From Dechloromonas sp. (GTDB taxonomy: Bacteria; Pseudomonadota; Gammaproteobacteria; Burkholderiales; Rhodocyclaceae), in contig JAQTXC010000004.1 in the NCBI GenBank assembly GCA_028689015.1, positions 1 through 64,000 of the forward strand: a stretch of 64,000 bases of DNA. The letters run 5' to 3'. Each line of letters starts with the position of its first letter. Positions within the stretch are counted from its first letter, which is position 1. A model generated the notes under the pieces. It worked only from the letters and a program-made list of their open reading frames with translations. It was not told where the DNA came from and did no database searches. Positions 21,049 to 52,304 of the stretch are shown one piece after another. A program made the position numbers and the translations under genes.

Positions 21049-21065
21049 TGCACCATGTTGGGGCG
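21049..21065 (+). promoter_or_regulatory. Degenerate NtrC-like enhancer upstream of cluster A
   Basis: TGCACCATGTTGGGGCG matches 10 of 12 fixed positions of the NtrC dyad TGCACC-N5-GGTGCA. A further TGCACC half-site lies at 21028-21033. The centre is about 87 nt before the start point predicted from the sigma-54 element. The right half is weak, so the call is tentative. Confidence 0.4.
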
Positions 21066-21117: not shown

Positions 21118-21133
21118 TGGCATGGAAACTGCT
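21118..21133 (+). promoter_or_regulatory. Sigma-54-type (-24/-12) promoter for cluster A
   Basis: TGGCATGGAAACTGCT has the invariant GG-N10-GC spacing and matches 10 of 12 fixed positions of TGGCACG-N4-TTGCT. The -12 GC lies 36 nt before the ATG at 21169, the same geometry as the element before cluster B. Confidence 0.55.
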
Positions 21134-21168: not shown

Positions 21169-22581
21169 ATGAATTTCTATAACGAGATGTACGAGACGGA
21201 CGGTCAAGTCCGGGCGCATTACGCGCGTTACGATGCCTGGCTCAAGGCAACGCCGGCTGAGCGCATTGAACGTAAGCGTGCTGAGGCCGATCTGGCGTTT
21301 CACCGCGTAGGTATTACCTTTGCGGTCTACGGTGAAGAAGCAGGAAAAGAGCGACTGATTCCCTTCGATATCATTCCGCGCATCATTCCTTCCAAAGAAT
21401 GGAAGTCGATGGAGCGAGGCATGCGGCAGCGAGTCAAGGCGCTCAACATGTTCCTGTGGGATATTTACCACGATCAGGAAATTCTAAAGGCCGGGAAAAT
21501 TCCCGCTGAACAGGTCTTGAATAACACCCAGTACCGCAAGGTGATGCAGGGGGTCGATGTGCCGGGGCAGGTTTACGCCCACATCGCCGGGGTCGATCTG
21601 GTACGAGCCGGCGAGGGCGAGTTTTACGTCCTCGAAGACAATTTGCGGGTGCCGTCTGGCGTGTCCTACATGCTTGAGGATCGCAAGATGATGATGCGGC
21701 TTTTCCCTGAGTTGTTCGCCAGGCACAAAGTGGCACCAGTCCAGCACTATCCCGACATGCTGCTGGAGAAGTTGCGTGCCGTGGCGCCGAATGGCGTCAG
21801 CAATCCGACGGTGGTGGTGCTGACCCCGGGGGCTTACAACAGTGCTTACTTCGAACACAGCTTCCTGGCCCAGCAAATGGGGGTCGAACTGGTCGAAGGT
21901 CGTGACCTGTTCGTTAAGGATGAAGTGGTTTATATGCGGACGACCCAAGGGCCGCAGCGCGTTGATGTCATTTATCGACGCATTGACGACGATTTTATGG
22001 ATCCGCTGGCTTTCCGGGCGGATTCCGCATTAGGCGTGCCGGGCATCCTGCGCGCCTACCAGGCCGGTAACGTCACCTTGTCGAATGCTATCGGAACGGG
22101 GGTGGCTGATGACAAGTCGATCTATCCTTATGTGCCGGATATGATCCGTTTCTATCTGGATGAGGAGCCGATCCTTAACAACGTGCCGACTTATATGTGT
22201 CGCAAAAAGGATGATTTGGCCTATGTGCTTGCACACTTGGCAGAACTGGTGGTCAAGGAAGTGCACGGCGCTGGTGGTTACGGCATGTTGGTCGGCCCGG
22301 CGTCGACCAAGGAACAGATCGAGCATTTCCGTCAGTTGCTGATCGCCAAGCCGGACGGCTATATCGCCCAACCGACCCTGGCTTTGTCCAATTGCCCGAC
22401 GTTCGTCGAAGAAGGCATTGCGCCACGACATCTCGATCTACGCCCCTTTGTCTTGTCCTCGGGCAAGTGCGTCAATATGGTGCCAGGTGGCCTGACCCGC
22501 GTCGCGTTGACCAAGGGGTCGCTGGTGGTCAACTCGTCGCAGGGCGGTGGGACCAAGGACACCTGGGTCCTCGAAGACTGA
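21169..22581 (+). CDS. Circularly permuted ATP-grasp protein (COG2308, DUF404/DUF407)
   Basis: A 470-residue stand-alone member of the circularly permuted ATP-grasp group, predicted to use ATP to form an amide or peptide bond. Family landmarks are GEFYVLEDNLRVPSGVSYMLEDR, LTPGAYNSAYFEHSFLA, VDVIYRRIDDDF and a C-terminal MVPGGLTRVA followed by SQGGGTKDTWVL. No signal peptide. The start follows a run with no strong SD. It pairs with the alpha-E gene 15 nt downstream, as in the conserved neighbourhoods described by Iyer, Aravind and colleagues. A fused paralogue lies at 31.4 kb. The substrate is unknown. Confidence 0.9.
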   Translation: MNFYNEMYETDGQVRAHYARYDAWLKATPAERIERKRAEADLAFHRVGITFAVYGEEAGKERLIPFDIIPRIIPSKEWKSMERGMRQRVKALNMFLWDIYHDQEILKAGKIPAEQVLNNTQYRKVMQGVDVPGQVYAHIAGVDLVRAGEGEFYVLEDNLRVPSGVSYMLEDRKMMMRLFPELFARHKVAPVQHYPDMLLEKLRAVAPNGVSNPTVVVLTPGAYNSAYFEHSFLAQQMGVELVEGRDLFVKDEVVYMRTTQGPQRVDVIYRRIDDDFMDPLAFRADSALGVPGILRAYQAGNVTLSNAIGTGVADDKSIYPYVPDMIRFYLDEEPILNNVPTYMCRKKDDLAYVLAHLAELVVKEVHGAGGYGMLVGPASTKEQIEHFRQLLIAKPDGYIAQPTLALSNCPTFVEEGIAPRHLDLRPFVLSSGKCVNMVPGGLTRVALTKGSLVVNSSQGGGTKDTWVLED

Positions 22582-22596
22582 TTACGGAGAACAAAC

Positions 22597-23544
22597 ATGC
22601 TATCGCGTACTGCTGATCACCTGTTCTGGATGTCTCGCTACATTGAACGGGCTGAAAACCTGGCCCGCCTGCTCGATGTCACCTGGCAGATGTCGCTGGT
22701 GCCGCAATCCGAGGAGGCGGCGAATCAGAACTGGAATGCCATCATCGGTCTGAACAGCCTCGAAGCGGCGTATGCCGCCAAGTATTCTGCGGTCAACAGC
22801 GACAATGTGCTGCATTTCATGGTGAGTGATCCGGATAATTACGCCTCGATCACCAGCTGCCTGCGTTTGGCGCGGGAAAACGCACATGCCGTGCGTGGCA
22901 CGATTACCACAGAAATGTGGGAAACAATGAATGCCACCTGGCTGGAGGCGCGGGGCAAGAGCTTCGAGCACATTATCAATGCCGGGATCGGCGAGTTTTT
23001 CGAATGGGTCAAGATGCGTTCCTCGCTGGCCCGCGGGACGACGCTCGGCACCTTGCTACAAGACGAATCCTTCCACTTCATCCGTTTGGGGACCCTGCTC
23101 GAGCGGGCCGATAACACGGCGCGGATTCTCGATGTCAAATATCACGTTCTGCGCCCCCATGGCGACGAAGGGGCGACCGATTTCTATCAGTGGGGCGCCC
23201 TGCTGCGCTCGGTGTCCGCATTCGAGGTTTATCGCAAGGCTTATCGCGATGTGATTACCCCGGAGCGGGTGGCTGAACTGTTGATCCTGCGCAATGACAT
23301 GCCGCGTTCGCTGCATTTCTGCATGAATGGCGTCCTGAAAAATCTTGAGCTGATTGCCAACAGTCATTCCGGTGAAACGCTGCGTCAGGTTGGTTTGTTG
23401 CATGCCCAACTGCACTATGCCCGAGTTGAAGATATCCTGGCGCATGGTTTGCACCAGTGGCTGACCGATTTCATGGATCGGATCTATGCCTTGGGTGATG
23501 GCATCAGCAAGGATTTTCTGGTGCCGATGGCAGAGGCTGCCTGA
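22597..23544 (+). CDS. Alpha-E domain protein (COG2307, DUF403)
   Basis: A 315-residue all-helical alpha-E protein, almost always linked to COG2308 ATP-grasp proteins. It begins MLSRTADHLFWMSRYIERAEN; the ERAEN motif near residue 19 recurs in the middle as LLERADNTARILDV, giving the paired glutamates that name the domain. A biochemical role is not established; it is thought to assist or partner the ligase. In many genomes a transglutaminase and the proteasome-like Anbu gene follow; here neither does, and a 379-nt gap comes next. Confidence 0.9.
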   Translation: MLSRTADHLFWMSRYIERAENLARLLDVTWQMSLVPQSEEAANQNWNAIIGLNSLEAAYAAKYSAVNSDNVLHFMVSDPDNYASITSCLRLARENAHAVRGTITTEMWETMNATWLEARGKSFEHIINAGIGEFFEWVKMRSSLARGTTLGTLLQDESFHFIRLGTLLERADNTARILDVKYHVLRPHGDEGATDFYQWGALLRSVSAFEVYRKAYRDVITPERVAELLILRNDMPRSLHFCMNGVLKNLELIANSHSGETLRQVGLLHAQLHYARVEDILAHGLHQWLTDFMDRIYALGDGISKDFLVPMAEAA

Positions 23545-23923
23545 CTGTGCCTGGATCAGGCGGTGGCTTTGGCCGCCGTCGCTGATTCAGAGGGCAGCGG
23601 CATGCGGCACAGTGTGACCGCTGCTTTTTGCGCCGGTTCAACCACACGACGCAGGGCACTCAGACCGATCAGCAGGCGATCCATTGCTTCGATTCTGAGT
23701 TAGTCACGCGCTCCGCTGTCTTGCAAATGCGCTTTGGTGGTAATCCAACTCGAAGGCGCCGCCGATCAGGGCGCCGGGGTTGATGCCATCCATCTGCTGC
23801 TATCCCGTTTTGTCAACTTGCAGATTGAACTTCAGCCAGACGAGCGTCAACCGGTGGGCTGGCGGGGCGGTGCTAGAATTCGCCGCTTTGCATGTCCCGG
23901 CCGGGCCGGGGGAACGGGGTGCC
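23545..23923. other. 379-nt gap with possible decayed minus-strand coding remnants
   Basis: No full gene fits here. On the minus strand I read two short open stretches: one from an ATG at about 23792 giving MDGINPGALIGGAFELDYHQ and a stop after 29 codons, then in another frame one from about 23683 giving MDRLLIGLSALRRVVEPAQ and a stop after 42 codons. They could be pieces of one frameshifted gene or chance ORFs. A TAGAAT hexamer at 23874-23879 on the plus strand may be part of the promoter for the flavoprotein at 23924. Confidence 0.35.
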
Positions 23924-25141
23924 ATGTATTTCGATGTCATTATCATGGGGGCCGGGGCGGCCGGCATGATGTGCGCGGCGCAAGCCGGCCGGCGGGGGCG
24001 GCGGGTGCTGCTGATTGATCACGCCGAAAAACTGGCTGAACGCATCCGCATTTCCGGCGGTGGTCGCTGCAATTTCACCAACCGGACAGTCAGCGCCGAT
24101 CATTACCTGTCACAAAACCCGCACTTCTGCCGCTCGGCGCTGGCGCGTTTTACCCCGAACGATTTCATCGCCCTACTGGAAAAGCGGCGTATTTCTTATC
24201 ATGAACGCGAACAGGGTCAATTGTTTTGCGATGACTCGGCCGAGGACATCATCGCCATGCTGCGTGATGCCTGCGACGAGGCCGGTGTGCAATGGGCCAT
24301 GCCGTGTGCGGTGCAGGGCATTGAGGCTCGGTCAGCGGGCAGCGCCCGCGGTGCGTTCGCGGTCGACAGCACGCAAGGGCGTTTTTCTGCCGAATCGCTG
24401 GTGGTGGCAACGGGGGGGCTGGCCATTCCGAAAATAGGCGCGACCCCCTTTGGCTATCGTCTGGCCGAGCAGTTTGGTCTTCCGGTGGTGCCGCCACGGC
24501 CGGCCCTGGTGCCATTGGCACTGGCCCCGGAACTGCTCGAACCCCTGAAGCCAATGGCCGGAACCACGCTTGATGCCAGTGCCCGCTTTGCCGATGCGGC
24601 ATTTCGCGAGAATGTGCTGATGACCCATCGCGGGCTGTCTGGCCCGGCCATCCTGCAGATTTCCAGTTACTGGCAGATGCAGGAATACGGCAGTGGTAAA
24701 AAGCGACCACTGGAAATCGACCTGTTGCCCGGTATCGACGCCGCGGCGTGGCTGGATGCCCATCGCCAGGGCCGCAGCCATTTACCAAATGTGCTGGCCG
24801 AGTATCTGCCCCGGCGTTTTGCCCACGAATGGTGCGCTTTGTATGGCGGCGATAAGGCACTCAGTCGGCCGATCGGCGAACTGGGTCGCCGTGATCTTGA
24901 ACAGATCGCTCGCCAACTCAATGCCTGGTCGCTGATGCCGGCCGGGACGCTGGGGTTTGCCAAAGCCGAAGTGACGCTGGGCGGTGTGTCGACCGCAGCT
25001 TTGTCGTCAAAAACCATGGCTGCACGGGATGTACCCGGTCTTTACTTCATCGGTGAAGTGGTCGATGTCACCGGCTGGCTGGGGGGGTACAACTTCCAGT
25101 GGGCCTGGTCGTCGGGCTGGGTGGCTGGGCAGTTTGCCTGA
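23924..25141 (+). CDS. HI0933/BaiN-family NAD(P)/FAD-dependent oxidoreductase
   Basis: A 405-residue flavoprotein from ATG 23924 (MYFDVIIMGAGAAGMM). The Rossmann GxGxxG is at residues 9-14; the HI0933 hallmark RIRISGGGRCNFTNR follows near residue 43. SLVVATGGLAIPKIG and the C-terminal GLYFIGEVVDVTGWLGGYNFQWAW are also diagnostic. Related BaiN proteins reduce bile-acid dehydration intermediates, but most members have no known substrate. It follows cluster A in the same direction across the gap; a divergent paralogue ends cluster B. Confidence 0.87.
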   Translation: MYFDVIIMGAGAAGMMCAAQAGRRGRRVLLIDHAEKLAERIRISGGGRCNFTNRTVSADHYLSQNPHFCRSALARFTPNDFIALLEKRRISYHEREQGQLFCDDSAEDIIAMLRDACDEAGVQWAMPCAVQGIEARSAGSARGAFAVDSTQGRFSAESLVVATGGLAIPKIGATPFGYRLAEQFGLPVVPPRPALVPLALAPELLEPLKPMAGTTLDASARFADAAFRENVLMTHRGLSGPAILQISSYWQMQEYGSGKKRPLEIDLLPGIDAAAWLDAHRQGRSHLPNVLAEYLPRRFAHEWCALYGGDKALSRPIGELGRRDLEQIARQLNAWSLMPAGTLGFAKAEVTLGGVSTAALSSKTMAARDVPGLYFIGEVVDVTGWLGGYNFQWAWSSGWVAGQFA

Positions 25142-27252: not shown

Positions 27253-27387
27253 GGCCAGGTCGGTTCGGAAGGAAAGCGGAGGGTGATTATACGGTGCCCG
27301 GTAAACGGGCGGGAGATGCTTACATTTGCTGACGTCTGCCAGGGGCTGCGGGCATAATGCAGCGATTGTCCATTTCATTTGAACGAC

Positions 27388-27813
27388 ATGCAGCAGACAA
27401 TCAGTTTCATTACCTTGGGGGTCTCTGACTTGGCGCGCAGTCGGGCTTTTTATGGCGCGCTGGGCTGGCAGGAGGCGGCGGCCAGTCAAGCCGAGGTGGC
27501 TTTCTTCCAGGCGGGCGGTGTCGTGCTGGCGCTTTTTCCACGTCAGGCGCTGGCCGAAGACGCCGGGGTGGCTTCGGCCGGCCAGGGCTTTGCCGGGTTT
27601 TCTCTGGCGCATAACGTGACTTCCGAGGCTGCCGTCGATAGCCTGCTGGCGGCTGCGCAGGCGGTGGGGGCGACGTGTCCGCAGCCGGCCAGTCGGGCGC
27701 CCTGGGGCGGTTATCGTGGCTATTTTGCCGACCCTGACGGCTTCCTGTGGGAGGTCTGTTTCAATCCCTTCATGCCCTTGGCCAGCGATGGCAGCTTGCG
27801 GCTGGCCGAGTGA
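27388..27813 (+). CDS. VOC (glyoxalase/bleomycin resistance) family protein
   Basis: A 141-residue vicinal-oxygen-chelate protein from ATG 27388 (MQQTISFITLGVSDLARS). Two beta-alpha-beta-beta-beta modules are recognisable: GVSDLARSRAFYGALGW at the start and WGGYRGYFADPDGFLWEV near the C-terminus, with the terminal Glu often used as metal ligand. First-module His is not seen, so catalysis is uncertain. It may bind a small molecule or be an enzyme of unknown type. It precedes the cluster B promoter. Confidence 0.8.
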   Translation: MQQTISFITLGVSDLARSRAFYGALGWQEAAASQAEVAFFQAGGVVLALFPRQALAEDAGVASAGQGFAGFSLAHNVTSEAAVDSLLAAAQAVGATCPQPASRAPWGGYRGYFADPDGFLWEVCFNPFMPLASDGSLRLAE

Positions 27814-27820
27814 GCGGGGA

Positions 27821-27837
27821 TGCACTGTTGTGGTGCA
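27821..27837 (+). promoter_or_regulatory. NtrC-like enhancer dyad upstream of cluster B
   Basis: TGCACTGTTGTGGTGCA is a TGCAC-N7-GTGCA dyad, matching 11 of 12 fixed positions of the enterobacterial NtrC consensus TGCACC-N5-GGTGCA. Its centre is about 107 nt upstream of the start point predicted from the sigma-54 element, the distance typical for NtrC enhancers. Confidence 0.6.
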
Positions 27838-27909
27838 TTCCTGCTGTCATGGAGCCTTCACCGAGTGCGTGGCAGAATTGACCACTCGAATAATCAGTGG
27901 CTTACAGGC

Positions 27910-27925
27910 TGGTTCGCCTTTTGCT
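27910..27925 (+). promoter_or_regulatory. Sigma-54-type (-24/-12) promoter for cluster B
   Basis: TGGTTCGCCTTTTGCT has GG-N10-GC spacing and matches 10 of 12 fixed positions of TGGCACG-N4-TTGCT. The -12 GC is 36 nt before the GTG start at 27961, and a GGAG ribosome-binding site lies between. Confidence 0.6.
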
Positions 27926-27960
27926 TTTAATCACGCAGTCATCTTGCCCGGAGCAAACTT

Positions 27961-30900
27961 GTGTCCATTCATGTCGCACTGAATCACGTAACCAAATATA
28001 GCTACGACCGCCTGATCAATCTGGGTCCGCAGGTTATCCGCCTGCGTCCCTGCCCGCACTCGCGCAGCCGCATTCTTTCCTATTCGCTGAAGATCGGTCC
28101 GGAAACGCATTTCATCAACTGGCAACAAGATCCGCAGGGCAATTACCTGGCCCGCCTGGTCTTCCCGGAAAAGACCCGCGAACTGTCGATCGAAGTCGAT
28201 CTGGTCGCTGAAATGTCGGTCATCAATCCCTTTGATTTCTTCCTTGAGCCGTACGCCGAGGAATTTCCCTTCACCTACGAAGCCTGGCAGCGCCATGAGC
28301 TGATGCCTTACCTGTACAAGGTGGCGGGCGGCGACTTGTTTGATCGCTACGTGGCGGCTATTCCGTTAGAGAAAAAGCGCAGTGTCGATTTCCTGGTCGC
28401 GCTCAATGCCCAGGTGCAGCGCGACATCAGCTACACCATTCGCATGGAGCCCGGCGTGCAGACGCCGGAGGAAACGCTGACCAAGCGTTCCGGTTCCTGT
28501 CGCGATACGGCCTGGTTGCTGGTACAGATCCTGCGTCATCTCGGTCTGGCGGCGCGTTTCGTTTCCGGCTATCTGGTCCAGTTGACCGCAGACGTCAAAT
28601 CGCTCGACGGTCCCTCCGGGCCAGAGGCTGATTTCACTGACTTGCATGCCTGGTGCGAGGTTTATTTGCCCGGCGCTGGCTGGGTCGGGCTCGATCCGAC
28701 CTCTGGCTTGTTTGCCGGTGAAGGCCATATCCCGCTGGCCTGTACGCCGGAACCGGCCTCAGCAGCCCCCTTGACTGGGGTGCTGGACGAGTGCGAAACC
28801 GAGTTCAGTCACCACATGCAGGTCACCCGGGTGTGGGAAGCACCACGAGTCACCAAACCCTATAGCGATGCGCAATGGGTTGAGATCGAAGGCCTCGGTC
28901 ATCAGATCGACGAAGAATTGCAGCGCATGGATGTGCGTCTGACGCAGGGGGGCGAGCCGACCTTTGTCGCGGTCGACGACCCGGATGGCGCAGAATGGAA
29001 TACCGCTGCGATGGGGCCGACCAAGCGGTATTTCGCGGCTGACCTGTTCCATCGTTTGCGCGAAAAATACGCCGCCAATGGCCTGATGCATTTCGGTCAG
29101 GGCAAGTGGTATCCCGGTGAGCAATTGCCGCGCTGGTCGCTTAACTGCTTCTGGCGCAAGGATGGTGAGCCGATCTGGAATTCGCCGGCACTCTATGCCG
29201 ATGAGCGCAAGGACTACCACGTCAGCGCCGAGCAGGCTGGACAGTTCCTCAAGCGGGTTGCCGAGCGCCTGGGCGTGACTGCCGAGCACGTCTTCCCGGC
29301 GTTCGAGGATGTCTATTACTACATGTGGCGTGAGCGCCGGCTACCGGGCAATGTCGATCCTTTTGATTCTCGGGTTGACGACGCCCTGGAGCGCGAGCGC
29401 CTGATGAAGGTGTTTACCCAGGGGATGACGCATACCGTCGGCCATGTCCTGCCGATCATGAAGAATGTCTGGAATCAGTGGCAGACCGGGCCATGGTTCC
29501 TGCGTGCTGAACGTTGCTACCTGTTCCCGGGCGATTCGGCCATGGGCTATCGCCTGCCGATCGACTCCCAGCCGTGGACGGCGACGAGCGACTACCCCTA
29601 TGTCAACGTGCCGGATGCTGAAACGGCGACCGATCCGTTGGCCAGTTATCAAGCTTTGCGGGCCCGGGTGGATGGTCAGCGCGACAGCGCCACGCCGATC
29701 CGCCAGCAGATGCGTGGCCAGGCCGAGGGCTGGCAGGCGATCGGGCCGGATGGCAAGGCGCGGGCCTGGGCCAAGCCGTCGGATACCGTGCCGGGATTCA
29801 AGGAATCCGCCGCCTGGATTACTCGCCTGGCGATGTGTGCCGAGCCGCGTGACGGCAAGCTTTACATCTTCATGCCGCCGACGCAGACGCTGGATGATTA
29901 TCTGGAAGTGGTGGCCGCAGTCGAGGCGACGGCCGAGGAAATGTCCTTGCCCATCATCATGGAGGGCTACGAGCCGCCGTCCGACCCGCGGATGACGCAT
30001 TTCCGCGTGACGCCGGATCCGGGCGTGATCGAAGTCAATATTCATCCGGCCAAGAGTTGGGATCAACTGGTCGACCAGACCACCCATCTCTACGAATCGG
30101 CCTACTACTCGCGCCTGACCACCGAAAAATTCATGCTCGACGGTCGTCATACCGGGACGGGGGGCGGTAATCACTTCGTACTCGGCGGCGCAACGCCGAA
30201 TGATTCGCCCTTCCTGCGCCGGCCAGACCTGCTGAAGAGCCTGATCGCCTACTGGCACAATCACCCCAGCCTGTCCTACCTGTTTTCTGGCTTGTTCATC
30301 GGGCCGACCAGCCAGGCGCCGCGTGTTGATGAGGCGCGCAACGACAGCCTGTACGAGATGGAAATCGCCTTCAAGCAGATTCCAAATCCCGGTGGTTTTG
30401 TGCCGCCCTGGCTGGTCGACCGTATCCTGCGCAATTTGCTGATCGACGTGACGGGTAATACGCACCGCGCCGAGTTCTGCATCGACAAGCTCTATTCACC
30501 GGATGGCCCGACTGGTCGCTTGGGCCTGCTTGAATTGCGCGCTTTTGAAATGCCGCCGCATGCCCGCATGTCGCTGGCCCAGCAACTCTTGCTACGTGGC
30601 CTGCTGGCCCGTTTCTGGAAGATGCCCTATACCCCGCCCAAGCTGGCGCGCTGGGGCACCGAGTTGCACGACCGCTTCATGCTGCCGCATTTTGTCGAGC
30701 AGGATTTTGCCGATGTGATGGAAGAAATGCAGCAGGCCGGTTTTGGCTTCAAGAAAGAATGGTTTGCCCCACATTTCGAATTCCGCTTCCCGAAATACGG
30801 CGATTTCGCCGTCAAAGGAATCGAATTCGAATTGCGGCATGCGCTGGAGCCCTGGCATGTCATGGGCGAGGAGGGGGGCGCCGGGGCAACCGTGCGTTAC

Positions 30901-31326
30901 GTCGATTCCTCAGTTGAGCGCGTTCAGGTCAAAGTGACCGGCATGGCACCGGATCGCTATGTGCTGACCTGTAACGGCGAACCCGTGCCGCTGACCAACA
31001 CCGGCAAGAACGGCGAGTTCGTTGCTGGCGTGCGCTACCGCGCCTGGCAACCAGAATCCTGTTTGCATCCGACCATCGGCGTGCATGCACCGCTGGTCTT
31101 CGATATCGTCGATACCTGGATGCAGCGCTCATTGGGTGGTTGTCAATACCACGTGGCGCATCCGGGTGGGCGTAGTTACGATGTTTTCCCGGTCAATGCC
31201 TTCGAGGCCGAAAGTCGACGTCTGGCACGTTTCTTCCGCTTCGGTCATACCCCTGGGCAAATGCAGGTCAAGCCGCTTGAGGTCAGCGCCGAGCATCCGT
31301 TTACGTTAGACTTGCGCCGCAGGTAA
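27961..31326 (+). CDS. Transglutaminase-DUF2126 (putative amidoligase) fusion protein
   Basis: A 1121-residue protein starting with GTG 27961 behind GGAG. Residues 1-90 form the bacterial transglutaminase N-terminal domain; the papain-like core carries Cys180 (SGSCRDTAW), His229 (DLHAWCEVYL) and Asp245 (GLDPTSG), an intact triad. From about residue 300 the protein is DUF2126, beginning at MDVRLTQGGEPTF; this region is classed as a putative amidoligase of the glutamine-synthetase-like fold. One chain thus seems to hold both a bond-breaking or transfer activity and a ligase. No signal peptide, so cytosolic. First gene of cluster B. Substrate unknown. Confidence 0.9.
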   Translation: MSIHVALNHVTKYSYDRLINLGPQVIRLRPCPHSRSRILSYSLKIGPETHFINWQQDPQGNYLARLVFPEKTRELSIEVDLVAEMSVINPFDFFLEPYAEEFPFTYEAWQRHELMPYLYKVAGGDLFDRYVAAIPLEKKRSVDFLVALNAQVQRDISYTIRMEPGVQTPEETLTKRSGSCRDTAWLLVQILRHLGLAARFVSGYLVQLTADVKSLDGPSGPEADFTDLHAWCEVYLPGAGWVGLDPTSGLFAGEGHIPLACTPEPASAAPLTGVLDECETEFSHHMQVTRVWEAPRVTKPYSDAQWVEIEGLGHQIDEELQRMDVRLTQGGEPTFVAVDDPDGAEWNTAAMGPTKRYFAADLFHRLREKYAANGLMHFGQGKWYPGEQLPRWSLNCFWRKDGEPIWNSPALYADERKDYHVSAEQAGQFLKRVAERLGVTAEHVFPAFEDVYYYMWRERRLPGNVDPFDSRVDDALERERLMKVFTQGMTHTVGHVLPIMKNVWNQWQTGPWFLRAERCYLFPGDSAMGYRLPIDSQPWTATSDYPYVNVPDAETATDPLASYQALRARVDGQRDSATPIRQQMRGQAEGWQAIGPDGKARAWAKPSDTVPGFKESAAWITRLAMCAEPRDGKLYIFMPPTQTLDDYLEVVAAVEATAEEMSLPIIMEGYEPPSDPRMTHFRVTPDPGVIEVNIHPAKSWDQLVDQTTHLYESAYYSRLTTEKFMLDGRHTGTGGGNHFVLGGATPNDSPFLRRPDLLKSLIAYWHNHPSLSYLFSGLFIGPTSQAPRVDEARNDSLYEMEIAFKQIPNPGGFVPPWLVDRILRNLLIDVTGNTHRAEFCIDKLYSPDGPTGRLGLLELRAFEMPPHARMSLAQQLLLRGLLARFWKMPYTPPKLARWGTELHDRFMLPHFVEQDFADVMEEMQQAGFGFKKEWFAPHFEFRFPKYGDFAVKGIEFELRHALEPWHVMGEEGGAGATVRYVDSSVERVQVKVTGMAPDRYVLTCNGEPVPLTNTGKNGEFVAGVRYRAWQPESCLHPTIGVHAPLVFDIVDTWMQRSLGGCQYHVAHPGGRSYDVFPVNAFEAESRRLARFFRFGHTPGQMQVKPLEVSAEHPFTLDLRRR

Positions 31327-31337
31327 TTAATTGTAAA

Positions 31338-31395
31338 ACCGCATGTTTTTTGCGGTCGACCCTAAAAACAGGCCGATAAACGGCCTGTTTCTTTT
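31338..31395 (+). terminator. Tandem hairpins inside cluster B
   Basis: First hairpin ACCGCA-TGTTTTT-TGCGGT (31338-31356); second, stronger, AAACAGGCCG-ATAAA-CGGCCTGTTT followed by CTTTT (31366-31395). The second looks like an intrinsic terminator or attenuator and would limit read-through to the next three genes. Confidence 0.65.
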
Positions 31396-31403
31396 CCGCC
31401 CAT

Positions 31404-33926
31404 ATGGCCCGAACACTACTCGCGATCTATCCCCATAGCGCCCGCCGTTACGATGAAATGTTGTCGTCCGAGGGCAGCGTTCGCACGCACTGGCGGCGTT
31501 TCTTCGTCCATCTTGACTCGGTGGCCCCAGAAGAAATGCACCACCGACTAGATTTTGTTGATCGACGCATTCTGGAAAATGGCGTTACCTATAACGTCTA
31601 TGCCGATCCCAATGGCGCCGACCGACCGTGGGCGCTCGATCCTCTGCCATTGATCATTCCCGAGGATGAGTGGGCCGAGGTATCGGCTGCGGTTGCTCAG
31701 CGGGCGCAATTGATGAATGCCATCATTGCCGACCTTTATGGCGAACAGCGCCTGCTGGCCGAAGGCCTGCTGCCGCCAGCCCTGGTGTATGGCCAGCATG
31801 GTTATTTGTGGCCTTGCCAGGGGATCAAGCCGCCCGGCGGTATCTGGCTGCATCACTACGCGGTAGACCTGGCTCGTTCGCCGAATGGGCAGTGGTGGGC
31901 GATTGCTGACCGGACGCAGGCACCGTCCGGCGCCGGTTATGCGCTGGAAAACCGGCTGATCGTGTCGCGTGTTTTTCCGGAAATGTTCCGTGACCTGCAT
32001 GTTCAGCATCTGGCCGATTACTTCCGCGACCAACAAGATGGCCTGGCGGCGCTAGCTCCGCTTGAAGGTGATGAGCAGCCGCACATCGTGTTGCTGACCC
32101 CCGGACCGTACAACGAAACCTATTTTGAACACGCCTATCTGGCCCGCTATTTGGGTTATCCACTGGTTGAGGGACAGGATTTAACCGTCCGCGGCGACAG
32201 TATTTACCTCAAAACGCTGCGTGGCCTGAAGCGGGTGCACGTCATTCTTCGTCGTCAGGATGATGCCTATTGCGATCCGCTTGAATTGCGTGGCGATTCG
32301 GCGCTGGGTATTCCTGGATTGCTCAATGTGGCGCGTGCCGGCCGGGTTGTCATTGCAAATGCGCTGGGCAGCGGATTGCTGACTTCCGGTGCCTTGATGG
32401 GTTTTCTGCCCGGCATTTGCGAGCGTCTGCTTGGTGAAAAACTGGCCATGCCCTCGGTGGCCACCTGGTGGTGCGGCGAAAAACCGGCCCTGGACTATGT
32501 CAAGAAACATTTTGACGATCTGGTCATCAAGCCAGCCTACCCAACCCAGAATATGTTGCCCGTATTTGGCCATACGCTGGAAGGCGAGGAGCGCGCTGAA
32601 ATGCTGCGTCGTATCGAAGCCCGACCCCATGCCTATGTCGCTCAGGAAATGGTCAATCTGTCGCAGGCGCCGACCTGGAGCCGGGCGCACGAACGGCGCC
32701 TGATTGCTCGACCCCTGGGCCTGCGCGCGTATGCCGCAGTCAATGCGGTGGGGGAATATTCGGTGATGCCAGGGGGGCTGACGCGGGTGGCAGCAGGAGC
32801 CAACGAACGCATTATCTCCATGCAGCGCGGCGGCGCATCGAAAGACACCTGGGTACTGACCAAGGGCCAGGTCAGTGAATTCACCATGCTCAAACCCTCG
32901 GTCACGGTTCGTGACCTGGTGCGGGCTGGCGCCAATCTGTCGTCACGGGTGGTGGAAAATCTGTTCTGGCTGGGCCGTTATTCCGAACGTTTCGACGACA
33001 GCGCCCGTCTGCTGCGCGTGGCGCTATCGCGGCTGGTTGATGCCGGCGGCGAAAAAACACCGGCGGTGGCCTCGGTCATGGAATTGGCACAACGTCTGGG
33101 CGTCCTGCCCAAACCGGAGGAGGATGCGCCGATGGCGGAGGGGGGCGAACATGTGCTGCTTGAAGCCATTTACGACCCCAAACAACCGGGCAGCCTGGCA
33201 GGTACCATCCGCAACCTGATGTGGTCGGCCACCCACGTTCGCGAACGACTGTCACTCGATCACTGGCATTCACTTAACCGCCTGCAGCGCGAGCAACAGG
33301 CCGCGCAGAAAAAACATCCGACCCTGACCGAGGCAATTGCTTTTCTCGACCGGGTGTTGGTGATTTCATCCTCGCTCAATGGCTTCGCCATGGACAACAT
33401 GACGCGCGACGATGGCTGGCGTTTCCTGATCATCGGCCGGCGACTGGAGCGCTTGTCTTTCTTCGCGCTGGCCATTGCTCATTTCATGCACATGCCCTCG
33501 TCGCGGGCAACGGGTTGCTTGGAGTGGTTGCTTGAGTTGGCCGATTCGATCATCACATATCGTTCGCGCTACTCGCGTGCGCCGGAGTTGTTGCCGGTGG
33601 TCGATCTACTGGTCTTTGACGAAAGCAATCCGCATAGCGTACTTTTCCAGGCGGGCGTGCTGGGGCGTTACCTGGACCGCATGGCACGGGAACTGGCGGC
33701 TGATCCGGAGGCCCCCTTGCTCGAGGCCAGTGAGACCTTGCGCCAGTTTTCGCTGGAATCGCTTGAGCATCTGCAATTCAGCCACTGCACGCAATGTTCG
33801 CCTTGTGATGATCTGGCGGCACGCTTGCTGGCCCTGGAGGCCGCAGCAGGTCAGTTGTCCGATCAACTGGGGATGCGTTATTTCACTCACGTCGGCGATG
33901 TCAGCCGGCAGACCATGGCCTTGTGA
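31404..33926 (+). CDS. ATP-grasp (COG2308) and alpha-E (COG2307) fusion protein
   Basis: An 840-residue fusion of the two proteins that are separate in cluster A. Residues 1 to about 490 are the circularly permuted ATP-grasp part, with LTPGPYNETYFEHAYLA, VHVILRRQDDAYCDP and MPGGLTRVA; residues from about 515 are alpha-E, with VVENLFWLGRYSERFDDSAR. SERFD replaces the ERAEN of the cluster A protein. The Cys-rich tail HCTQCSPCDD near the C-terminus is unusual and could bind metal. ATG 31404 has no clear Shine-Dalgarno. Predicted ATP-dependent peptide or amide ligase, substrate unknown. Confidence 0.9.
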   Translation: MARTLLAIYPHSARRYDEMLSSEGSVRTHWRRFFVHLDSVAPEEMHHRLDFVDRRILENGVTYNVYADPNGADRPWALDPLPLIIPEDEWAEVSAAVAQRAQLMNAIIADLYGEQRLLAEGLLPPALVYGQHGYLWPCQGIKPPGGIWLHHYAVDLARSPNGQWWAIADRTQAPSGAGYALENRLIVSRVFPEMFRDLHVQHLADYFRDQQDGLAALAPLEGDEQPHIVLLTPGPYNETYFEHAYLARYLGYPLVEGQDLTVRGDSIYLKTLRGLKRVHVILRRQDDAYCDPLELRGDSALGIPGLLNVARAGRVVIANALGSGLLTSGALMGFLPGICERLLGEKLAMPSVATWWCGEKPALDYVKKHFDDLVIKPAYPTQNMLPVFGHTLEGEERAEMLRRIEARPHAYVAQEMVNLSQAPTWSRAHERRLIARPLGLRAYAAVNAVGEYSVMPGGLTRVAAGANERIISMQRGGASKDTWVLTKGQVSEFTMLKPSVTVRDLVRAGANLSSRVVENLFWLGRYSERFDDSARLLRVALSRLVDAGGEKTPAVASVMELAQRLGVLPKPEEDAPMAEGGEHVLLEAIYDPKQPGSLAGTIRNLMWSATHVRERLSLDHWHSLNRLQREQQAAQKKHPTLTEAIAFLDRVLVISSSLNGFAMDNMTRDDGWRFLIIGRRLERLSFFALAIAHFMHMPSSRATGCLEWLLELADSIITYRSRYSRAPELLPVVDLLVFDESNPHSVLFQAGVLGRYLDRMARELAADPEAPLLEASETLRQFSLESLEHLQFSHCTQCSPCDDLAARLLALEAAAGQLSDQLGMRYFTHVGDVSRQTMAL

Positions 33927-33928
33927 CA

Positions 33929-34885
33929 ATGGAAGCCGTTCGCTATCACGTTCTGCACGAGACCCGCTACGACTACGGTAGTCCGGTTTCCTTGTCGCAG
34001 CAGCAACTGCACCTGTCGCCACGCTTCCTGCCCTGGCAGCAGGTCGAGGAGCAGCGGATCGACATCGAGCCGGTGCCGACCTGGCGCCGTGATGGCCAGG
34101 ATGCCTTTGGCAATCCGGTGAGTTGGCTGGCTTTCAATGCACCGCACGAAAGTTTGCGCATTCGCTCGGCCATGACGGTTGATATCCTGCCGCACCGGCC
34201 TGTCGATCTCGACCAGTCGATGCCTTGGGATGCCTTGCGCAGGCGCCTGGCGTATGGCGCTGACGAGCCGCTGGCCGAGGATCTGTTGGCAGTGCGTTTC
34301 CGTTTTGAGAGTCCGCATATCCGGATTAAGCACGAACTGGCCGATTACGCCGCTGACTGCTTTCCGCCGGGTCGGCCGGTGCTCCTTGGCGCCCAGGCGC
34401 TGATGACGAAAATCTTTACCGAATTCGAATTTGACCCCGAGGCCACCACGGTGTCGACGCCTATCCTTGAGGTGCTGGAGAACAAGCGCGGCGTTTGTCA
34501 GGATTTCGCCCATTTGATGATTGGTTGCCTGCGTGCCATCGGTCTGGCCGCTTGCTATGTCAGCGGTTATCTGCTGACCCGGCCACCGCCGGGCAAACCC
34601 CGGCTGATCGGTGCCGATGCCTCGCATGCCTGGGTGTCAGTTTATTCACCGGGCAGCGAACATGGCTGGGTTGATTTCGACCCGACCAACGATTTACTGC
34701 CTGATACCGAGCACATCACCATTGCGCTGGGTCGCGATTTCAGCGACATCTCGCCGCTACGCGGCATCATCCTGGGCGGCGGCGGGGCGGAGCCTGATGT
34801 CGCCGTCACGGTGGTGCCGCTCGATGAAGAGGCTTTGCCAGAGGGCTTGCTGGAAGCGAGTCCGACTGTTCCCGCCGACGACTGA
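33929..34885 (+). CDS. Transglutaminase-like cysteine peptidase family protein
   Basis: A 318-residue protein from ATG 33929 (MEAVRYHVLHETRYDYG); a GTG two codons earlier overlaps the preceding TGA and is an equally possible start. It has the same N-terminal beta domain as the cluster B fusion and an intact triad: Cys190 (RGVCQDFAHL), His233 (DASHAWVSVY) and Asp251 (VDFDPTNDLL). Such proteins can hydrolyse or transfer amide bonds. No export signal. It is tightly coupled to the ATP-grasp fusion upstream and the flavoprotein downstream. Confidence 0.9.
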   Translation: MEAVRYHVLHETRYDYGSPVSLSQQQLHLSPRFLPWQQVEEQRIDIEPVPTWRRDGQDAFGNPVSWLAFNAPHESLRIRSAMTVDILPHRPVDLDQSMPWDALRRRLAYGADEPLAEDLLAVRFRFESPHIRIKHELADYAADCFPPGRPVLLGAQALMTKIFTEFEFDPEATTVSTPILEVLENKRGVCQDFAHLMIGCLRAIGLAACYVSGYLLTRPPPGKPRLIGADASHAWVSVYSPGSEHGWVDFDPTNDLLPDTEHITIALGRDFSDISPLRGIILGGGGAEPDVAVTVVPLDEEALPEGLLEASPTVPADD

Positions 34886-36099
34886 TGCGGCGGGTGGCAA
34901 TTATTGGCGGTGGTCCGGCAGGCCTGATGGCGGCCGAGCAACTGTCCACGGTCGACGGCCTGCAAGTCGATATTTTCGAAGCCATGCCCTCGCTCGGCCG
35001 CAAGTTTCTGATGGCCGGCAAGGGCGGCATGAATATCACCCATGCTGAACCGCTGGCCGACTTCATTCGCCGTTATGGTGAACGGGCTGCTCAGTTGGCG
35101 CCATGCCTGCTGGCCTTTGGCCCGGCAGCGGTGCGTGAGTGGATTCATGGTCTGGGCATCGAAACCTTCGTTGGCACCTCAGGTCGGGTTTTTCCGACCG
35201 GGATGAAGGCCGCTCCCTTACTGCGCGCCTGGCTGCATCGTCTGCGCCAGCGTGGGGTGCGGATTCATGTCCGGCATCGCTGGCTGGGCTGGGGTGATGC
35301 GGGGGCCTTGCGTTTTGCCACGCCAGACGGCGAAATGGCCGTTTTTGCCGCGTCGACCGTGTTGGCACTTGGCGGTGGCAGTTGGTCGCGCCTGGGGTCG
35401 GATGGCCGTTGGGTGCCTTTGTTACGGTCGACCGGCTTGCCGGTCGCCGATTTGCAGCCAGCCAACTGTGGTTTTGAGGTTGCCTGGTCGGATCATTTTC
35501 GCCAGCGCTTTGCCGGCGCCCCGGTGAAGGCAGTCATCGCCGCTTGCGGTCAACGGCAGCAACAGGGCGAATTCAACATTACCGAAACAGGGGTCGAGGG
35601 TGGTTTGATCTACGCTTTGTCGGCGCCCTTGCGAGAGGCTCTGGCCCGTGGTGAACAAGCGGTGTTACAGCTTGATCTGGCGCCGGGCCGCAGCCTGGCG
35701 CGGCTGAGCGCTGATCTGGCGCTGCCGCAGGGCCGCGATACGCTGGCCAATCATTTACGACGACGGGCCGGAATCGATGGGGTCAAGGCGGGTTTATTGC
35801 GTGAATTTTTCTCGCCAGCGCAGTTGACCGTGGCGACCACGCTGGCCGCCGCGATCAAGGCCTTGCCGCTGGTGGTGCAGGCGACGCGACCATTGGACGA
35901 GGCGATCAGTTCAGCTGGCGGTCTTGACCTGGCCGCGTTGAACGATCAAGGCATGGTCGTTGCGCGGCCTGGCCTGTTTTGCGCGGGCGAGATGCTGGAT
36001 TGGGAAGCGCCGACCGGCGGGTATCTGCTGACCGCCTGTTTGGCGACCGGCTGGCGGGCCGGTCGCGGTGTACGCTGCTGGCTGGGCGAAACCCGCTAG
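34885..36099 (+). CDS. TIGR03862-type flavoprotein (HI0933 family)
   Basis: A 404-residue FAD protein whose ATG shares one base with the stop of the transglutaminase gene, so it is part of the cluster B operon. VAIIGGGPAGLMAAEQL is the FAD Rossmann motif; LGRKFLMAGKGGMNITHAE is the variant of the HI0933 signature typical of TIGR03862, and GLFCAGEMLDWEAPTGGYLL the C-terminal FAD contact. It is clearly divergent from the HI0933-type protein at 23.9 kb. The function is unknown. Its stop codon TAG overlaps the stop of the convergent kinase gene within CTAG. Confidence 0.87.
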   Translation: MRRVAIIGGGPAGLMAAEQLSTVDGLQVDIFEAMPSLGRKFLMAGKGGMNITHAEPLADFIRRYGERAAQLAPCLLAFGPAAVREWIHGLGIETFVGTSGRVFPTGMKAAPLLRAWLHRLRQRGVRIHVRHRWLGWGDAGALRFATPDGEMAVFAASTVLALGGGSWSRLGSDGRWVPLLRSTGLPVADLQPANCGFEVAWSDHFRQRFAGAPVKAVIAACGQRQQQGEFNITETGVEGGLIYALSAPLREALARGEQAVLQLDLAPGRSLARLSADLALPQGRDTLANHLRRRAGIDGVKAGLLREFFSPAQLTVATTLAAAIKALPLVVQATRPLDEAISSAGGLDLAALNDQGMVVARPGLFCAGEMLDWEAPTGGYLLTACLATGWRAGRGVRCWLGETR

Positions 36100-51701: not shown

Positions 51702-52304
51702 TTACGGGGTGCGCTGCAGTAGATTGGCCAATTCGACCGCCGTCTTAACCTGCATTTTGTCGAACAGGTTGGCCCGATGCACCTCGACGGTGCGCATGCT
51801 GATGTTTAATTCGTCGGCAATGACTTTGTTGTACTTGCCGGCGAGAACCAATTCCATGATCTGGCGTTCGCGCGGGGTCAGGCGGGCCAGTTGGGCGTTG
51901 ACGGTATCGGCACAGGCTTCGGCGGCACGTTGCTTGCAGTCGGTGGCCATTGCTTCGCTGATGCGGGTGGCCAGATCATTGTCATTGAATGGTTTTTCGA
52001 AAAAATCGAAAGCACCTTTCTTCAAGGTGGCGACCGCCATCGGGACATCGCCATGGCCGGTCAGGAAAATGACTGGTAGGCGGGCGCCCCGGCTGTGCAG
52101 AATGTCGAAGCAATCAAGGCCGCTCATCCCCGACATGCGCATGTCCAGGACCACGCAGCCGCATAGACCAGGGTGCCAGGCAGCTAGAAAAGTTTCGGCC
52201 GATTCATAGGTGGCGCACGGTAGACCGCGTGATTTGAGGAGCCAGGCGAGGGCGTCGCGAATGGCTTCGTCGTCGTCAACCAGGTGGGCTTGGGGCAAAC
52301 TCAA
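51702..52304 (-). CDS. FixJ/DctR-like response regulator
   Basis: A 200-residue regulator: receiver domain with Asp in GCVVLDMRMSGMSGLD, then a LuxR-type HTH (LTPRERQIMELVLAGKYNKVIADEL and SMRTVEVHRANLFDKM). It overlaps the sensor kinase gene by 4 nt (ATGA). Next to a dctPQM TRAP operon this matches the DctS/DctR systems that switch on C4-dicarboxylate uptake in Rhodobacter and others; the ligand here is inferred. A candidate binding dyad lies before dctP. Confidence 0.88.
   Translation of the reverse strand: MSLPQAHLVDDDEAIRDALAWLLKSRGLPCATYESAETFLAAWHPGLCGCVVLDMRMSGMSGLDCFDILHSRGARLPVIFLTGHGDVPMAVATLKKGAFDFFEKPFNDNDLATRISEAMATDCKQRAAEACADTVNAQLARLTPRERQIMELVLAGKYNKVIADELNISMRTVEVHRANLFDKMQVKTAVELANLLQRTP

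Follow-up and report, generated by a model that had tools for sequence, protein, structure and literature searches.

What turns on a cluster of transglutaminase-like, DUF2126 and ATP-grasp/Alpha-E genes in Dechloromonas sp., and what might the encoded enzymes make or break? We know of no function assigned to ATP-grasp/Alpha-E/transglutaminase/DUF2126 genes, which are widespread in proteobacteria, since their description in 2008–2009. We analyzed a 64,000-nucleotide stretch of DNA (contig JAQTXC010000004.1, positions 1 to 64,000; hereafter, the window), which lies on contig 49 of a 2.87-Mb genome that is 99% complete and has Azonexus and Dechloromonas as close relatives. The genes in question (cluster B) are very likely controlled by NtrC and sigma-54, as an earlier note on this sequence had said, and together with a companion cluster A (21169–23544) they probably form an NtrC/sigma-54-induced system of amide-bond enzymes for the capture or release of nitrogen. 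The promoter elements and genes of cluster B are as follows.

27821–27837, plus strand: NtrC-type dyad (enhancer) TGCACTGTTGTGGTGCA, 11/12, called by match to the NtrC consensus and conservation in the genus.
27857–27873, plus strand: weaker second NtrC-like site TTCACCGAGTGCGTGGC, tentative, 8/12 here and up to 9/12 in relatives.
27910–27925, plus strand: sigma-54 (-24/-12) element TGGTTCGCCTTTTGCT, 10/12 with GG-N10-GC, called by consensus match and conservation in the genus.
27961–31326, plus strand: fusion of a transglutaminase-like domain and DUF2126, a predicted glutamine-synthetase-like amidoligase, 1121 aa (Pfam: Bact_transglu_N, Transglut_core, DUF2126).
31404–33926, plus strand: fusion of a circularly permuted ATP-grasp and Alpha-E, 840 aa (Pfam: CP_ATPgrasp, Alpha-E).
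33923–34885, plus strand: second transglutaminase-like protein, 320 aa, or 318 from the ATG at 33929 (Pfam: Bact_transglu_N, Transglut_core).

The dyad and the sigma-54 element were found where the earlier note had placed them, and its enhancer-to-start spacing of about 107 nt agrees with the distance between the middle of the dyad and the start expected at about 27936. A single-genome sigma-54 match for cluster B says little, because the window has many others of equal quality (9 of 10/12 observed against 16 expected from shuffling). Dyads of 11/12 numbered 2 against 0.38 expected, and about 1 in 20,000 random stretches of the same composition would have both a dyad and a sigma-54 element in the 200 bases before a gene. 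A simple scan of 27700–28100 returned no sigma-70 promoter, a scan that does not exclude one. The window holds a further 11/12 NtrC dyad at 51778–51794, with an 11/12 sigma-54-like site 144 nt on (51923–51938); a listed open reading frame (ORF) overlaps the pair, which is probably due to chance.

Since the match alone goes only partly beyond chance, we looked for the elements in close relatives, using 32 same-genus loci where the DUF2126 gene has its own promoter, 31 of which had upstream sequence readable for the dyad. The sigma-54 element lay 52–56 nt upstream of the reference position in 32/32 loci, with 9–10 of 12 matches and with GG and GC kept, and a dyad of at least 9/12 was found at about -141 to -155 in 31/31, where about 3.4 were expected. 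Mean column identity in the genus alignment was 0.98 over the 12 positions of the sigma-54 element and 0.86 over the dyad half-sites, compared with 0.54 in the dyad spacer and 0.53 in the other intergenic columns. The second NtrC-like site, 36 bp downstream of the first dyad, also forms a conserved block, with consensus CTTTCATCAGGTGCGTGGC. Dyad and sigma-54 element occurred jointly in 26/31 same-genus loci and, within the scanned window, in 22/26 loci from other Rhodocyclaceae genera, none being expected in either set. It is this conservation across relatives that is the real proof of the predicted cluster B elements; their absence from close relatives, which the earlier note had raised as a point against itself, was looked for, and they proved to be conserved.

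The departures from this pattern largely follow the arrangement of the operons. Three of the four other-genus exceptions have cluster A directly upstream in a merged operon, with the dyad and sigma-54 element placed before cluster A in two of them (L101 and L105) and candidate elements further upstream in the third (L109); in the fourth (L100) both elements are present, further upstream of DUF2126. A merged operon within the genus (L156) likewise lacks local elements and has matching ones before cluster A, and in Burkholderia latens, Burkholderia arboris and Burkholderia sp. TSV86 the pair stands at the operon head and not locally. In Pseudomonas loci an almost unvarying TGGCATAAGTCTTGCG stands at about -53, and the dyads are weaker. 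Clear elements were not found in the scanned stretch of some distant loci, such as Serratia L210 and Herbaspirillum L219, so NtrC/sigma-54 control would not be universal. The footprint makes nitrogen limitation, acting by way of NtrC, the likely ancestral trigger of these genes in many beta-proteobacteria.

The genome encodes both regulators: NtrC scores 687.7 bits where the cut-off is 558.6, and RpoN scores 471.5 bits where it is 277.35. A strict search of the genome returned 54 strand-counted dyads, six of which are followed, 50–150 nt downstream, by a sigma-54 element matching at least 10/12, compared with one in the upstream control; glnA and a porin-glnK-amtB operon, recognised from their ORF sequences, are among the six and share the architecture of the cluster B promoter. 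Published expression data from homologues point the same way. In Burkholderia cenocepacia H111, I35_5080-5083 (DUF404/407, DUF403, a transglutaminase and a large transglutaminase protein) were 8.2-, 9.4-, 9.4- and 6.0-fold lower in an ntrC mutant and appear among the common targets of NtrC and sigma-54 (PMC5491218). These are the same ATP-grasp, Alpha-E, transglutaminase and large transglutaminase families, and related Burkholderia likewise have NtrC/sigma-54 elements at the operon head; judging from those related loci, the genes of A and B lie there in a single operon that also holds an additional transglutaminase, whereas in the window they make up two operons separated by 4 kb, both equipped with elements. 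The transglutaminase genes PP_2686-2688 of Pseudomonas putida, which we equate with cluster A by annotation alone, rose 11- to 15-fold under nitrogen limitation in the wild type and were assigned to NtrBC (PMC7801951, Table 2). Marine metagenome correlations link these domains with urea metabolism (PMC3597751). Nitrogen control of these genes is thus not new, being on record for B. cenocepacia and less cleanly for P. putida, and is here strengthened and extended. The earlier note's claim that the system is nitrogen-controlled in this organism is strongly supported by the relatives' footprint and by the NtrC-dependent homologue (PMC5491218); what does not hold is any special tie to the organism, as the control appears to be an old shared trait.

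Cluster B, which the earlier note had considered by itself, was confirmed gene by gene, yet it appears to be only half of a two-module system, the other half of which is cluster A.

21049–21065, plus strand: NtrC-type dyad TGCACCATGTTGGGGCG, 10/12, upstream of cluster A.
21118–21133, plus strand: sigma-54 element TGGCATGGAAACTGCT, 10/12, kept in all 19 same-genus loci with a readable start.
21169–22581, plus strand: circularly permuted ATP-grasp with its glycine-rich loop intact (Pfam; loop KEVHGAGGYGM).
22597–23544, plus strand: stand-alone Alpha-E protein (Pfam).

The cluster A element pair as a whole is kept in those 19/19 loci. From Pseudomonas to Burkholderia, almost every locus keeps the cluster B order DUF2126, ATP-grasp/Alpha-E fusion, transglutaminase, and the two clusters are merged into a single operon in several genera. 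Among 41 genomes of the genus, 34 have both clusters, five have neither, none has A only, and the two with B only are incomplete or fragmented assemblies (Fisher p = 3e-5, without correction for shared ancestry). Merged operons and joint presence or absence together argue that A and B are two halves of one co-regulated system, separate clusters that behave as one. In one genome (G023) the DUF2126 match contains a single in-frame TGA, which reflects decay or a sequencing error.

The chemistry has to be read from domains and models. The DUF2126 protein, whose Pfam match to DUF2126 scores 1356 bits, and the second transglutaminase both retain the Cys-His-Asp triad that is the hallmark of transglutaminase-like (papain-fold) enzymes. 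In the former, Cys180/His229/Asp245 is intact as the earlier note had numbered it and invariant in 37 homologues; in the latter, the note's Cys190/His233/Asp251 is right if translation starts at ATG 33929 and becomes 192/235/253 if it starts at GTG 33923. The model of the DUF2126 protein matches transglutaminase 3isr, and its other high-probability matches are mainly glutamine synthetases, with probabilities up to 0.99. DUF2126 has reportedly been proposed to be a circularly permuted glutamine-synthetase-like ligase, with which these matches agree. Among solved structures, only transglutaminases reached significant E-values in a DUF2126 profile search; the domain looks glutamine-synthetase-like, a fold that is weakly supported. 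Several genomes (G107, G155, G089, G064, G125 and others) encode shorter proteins, open frames of about 700–790 aa, that match only residues 615–1107 of the DUF2126 protein at 32–35% identity, and since they match that part alone, it may be a self-contained ligase unit. A fold match to the E-64 ligase Cp1B (9cjn) was dropped after a check of PMC12568646 revealed no link.

The model of the ATP-grasp/Alpha-E fusion (predicted local distance difference test, pLDDT, 85) matches 3n6x (E 6e-32) as well as glutathione, glutathionylspermidine and trypanothione synthetases. After the conserved Lys, cluster A ATP-grasp has the glycine-rich loop KEVHGAGGYGM, which resembles the ATP loop of glutathione synthetase, whereas the fused copy (31404–33926) has KPAYPTQNMLPVFG at that place. 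Homologues of the fused copy have lost the loop too, which suggests, without proving it, that this copy is not an ordinary ligase. With glutathionylspermidine synthetase/amidase and the glutathione synthetases the system would share the ATP-grasp fold and the combination of a ligase and a cysteine amidase; it differs in that identity is only about 12%, the fused copy lacks the ATP loop, and the amidase is of another fold.

We propose that, when nitrogen is scarce, phosphorylated NtrC and sigma-54 RNA polymerase turn on clusters A and B, NtrC dimers on the dyad making looping contact with the polymerase at 27910–27925 and transcription starting near 27936. At the expense of ATP, the intact cluster A ATP-grasp and DUF2126 would join a carboxylate to an amine or amino acid through an amide bond, the transglutaminase-like Cys-His-Asp domains, of which one is fused to the ligase, would cut or transfer such bonds, and the fused ATP-grasp/Alpha-E, lacking an ATP loop, would probably act as partner or scaffold. 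This pairing of ligation and cleavage is modelled on bifunctional synthetase/amidases such as glutathionylspermidine synthetase. Amide-bond formation and cleavage for nitrogen economy would be the most likely function, nitrogen being captured or released via amide conjugates, and the product may be the peptide or isopeptide-linked nitrogen compound that the earlier note envisaged. If so, the search for the substrate narrows to nitrogen-starved cells.

Several points weigh against this proposal. Nitrogen control of the clusters in this organism is read from sequence, and the expression evidence comes from homologues only; in P. putida, moreover, PP_2686-2688 were still 14- to 20-fold up in an rpoN mutant (PMC7801951, Table 2), and given that persistence sigma-54 may not be the sole route there. 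Confidence in the DUF2126 model is low (mean pLDDT 66), with its glutamine synthetase matches at E 0.02–0.1, and activity searches on a related Anbu operon gave only phosphate release from ATP (PMC6376114).

A bolder form of the proposal, which we advance as a tentative possibility, would make A and B a pathway of amide conjugation that works without Anbu and salvages nitrogen across beta- and gamma-proteobacteria, with DUF2126 and the intact ATP-grasp as ligases and the fused ATP-grasp/Alpha-E as a catalytically dead partner. It would be a general branch of the Ntr response, so far unrecognised, that has a metabolite of its own.

Rather unlikely, in our judgement, is a nitrogen-controlled route of amine utilisation resembling the gamma-glutamyl-putrescine pathway, in which the ligase would attach glutamate to an amine, an oxidase would act on it and the transglutaminase-like domain would take the glutamate off again. 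The cast of enzymes would suit it (a glutamine-synthetase-like ligase, a glutathionylspermidine-synthetase-like ATP-grasp and amidase-like domains), the NtrC regulon of B. cenocepacia includes polyamine and urea transport genes, and a flavoprotein gene overlaps the last cluster B gene in this genus.

34885–36099, plus strand: HI0933-like flavoprotein (TIGR03862), overlapping the stop of the second transglutaminase gene.

This flavoprotein lies 3' of cluster B in the Azonexus loci examined but not in other genera, where the cluster does not include it, and next to the cluster we saw no gene for a dedicated amine transporter.

An improbable alternative is that the system tags proteins with peptides for breakdown by the proteasome-like Anbu, thereby freeing amino acids in nitrogen starvation. 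The 2009 work of Iyer and Aravind, which we know through citing papers, is said to have predicted a peptide-tagging system of a circularly permuted ATP-grasp, a glutamine-synthetase-like ligase, Alpha-E and an N-terminal nucleophile (NTN) peptidase. The earlier note rightly recognised this system, and its ATP-grasp, Alpha-E, DUF2126 and transglutaminase are all in the window; the NTN peptidase, Anbu, is missing from the genome, where we found 0 matches and, as the lone proteasome-family match, an HslV-like protein. Anbu and these genes do share operons, and both its induction by nitrogen starvation and its rise in nitrogen-limited P. putida have been reported (PMC5666114, PMC6376114). The Anbu operon of Pseudomonas and Yersinia (ATP-grasp, Alpha-E, transglutaminase, Anbu) resembles cluster A in its ATP-grasp and Alpha-E genes and in the reported nitrogen-starvation induction, and differs in that cluster A has two of the four genes, without transglutaminase or Anbu, while the window adds a separate DUF2126 module. 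Several genomes of the family have Anbu between cluster A and DUF2126, and seven of the 41 genus genomes have it, after cluster A where positions were compared; yet it is absent from the other 34 and from many of the family's genomes that have cluster B, and the copy in G023 (G023:C1:1443762-1444483) is frameshifted and split over two reading frames, through decay or sequencing error. Purified Anbu, moreover, had no peptidase activity on proteasome substrates (PMC6376114). With Anbu absent here and from most of the genus, an obligatory tag-and-degrade model does not fit; the conserved core needs no Anbu, and the proteasome-like partner appears dispensable.

Control by a sigma-54 activator other than NtrC, such as NifA, seems very improbable: the genome encodes eight strong sigma-54 activators and seems to have nif genes (a NifE-like ORF recognised by eye at L238), but the conserved dyad fits the NtrC consensus, the homologue is NtrC-dependent (PMC5491218), and we rejected NifA because its site, TGT-N10-ACA, is not conserved in the genus promoters, being missing apart from two scattered cases. 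Least credible of all, and rejected on the conservation footprint and the lack of a terminator-like site, is that the dyad is the terminator hairpin of the glyoxalase-like ORF (27379–27813) that precedes the promoter, with the sigma-54 match arising by chance: the dyad begins 8 nt past that ORF's stop codon and 10/12 sigma-54 matches are common, but it has neither a T run nor a terminator-like site, its half-sites are conserved and its spacer is not (0.86 versus 0.54), it is kept where no glyoxalase was detected upstream, as in Azonexus fungiphilus DSM 23841 (L157, which shares a contig with the same-genus genome G031), and the elements shift along with operon rearrangement.

Some further observations concern neighbouring or related genes. 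Another HI0933-like flavoprotein (23912–25138) follows cluster A. Elsewhere in the genome, at L238 (G000:C15:5000-12000), a dyad and a sigma-54-like element precede the gene for an 883-aa dCache/CheW protein, with the NifE-like ORF adjoining; this is possibly a chemotaxis gene under nitrogen control, in an organism that would be a nitrogen fixer. Another transglutaminase-like protein, whose N-terminal domain is of a different kind (PF21295), is encoded outside the nitrogen clusters at L236:2996-3892 (G000:C29).

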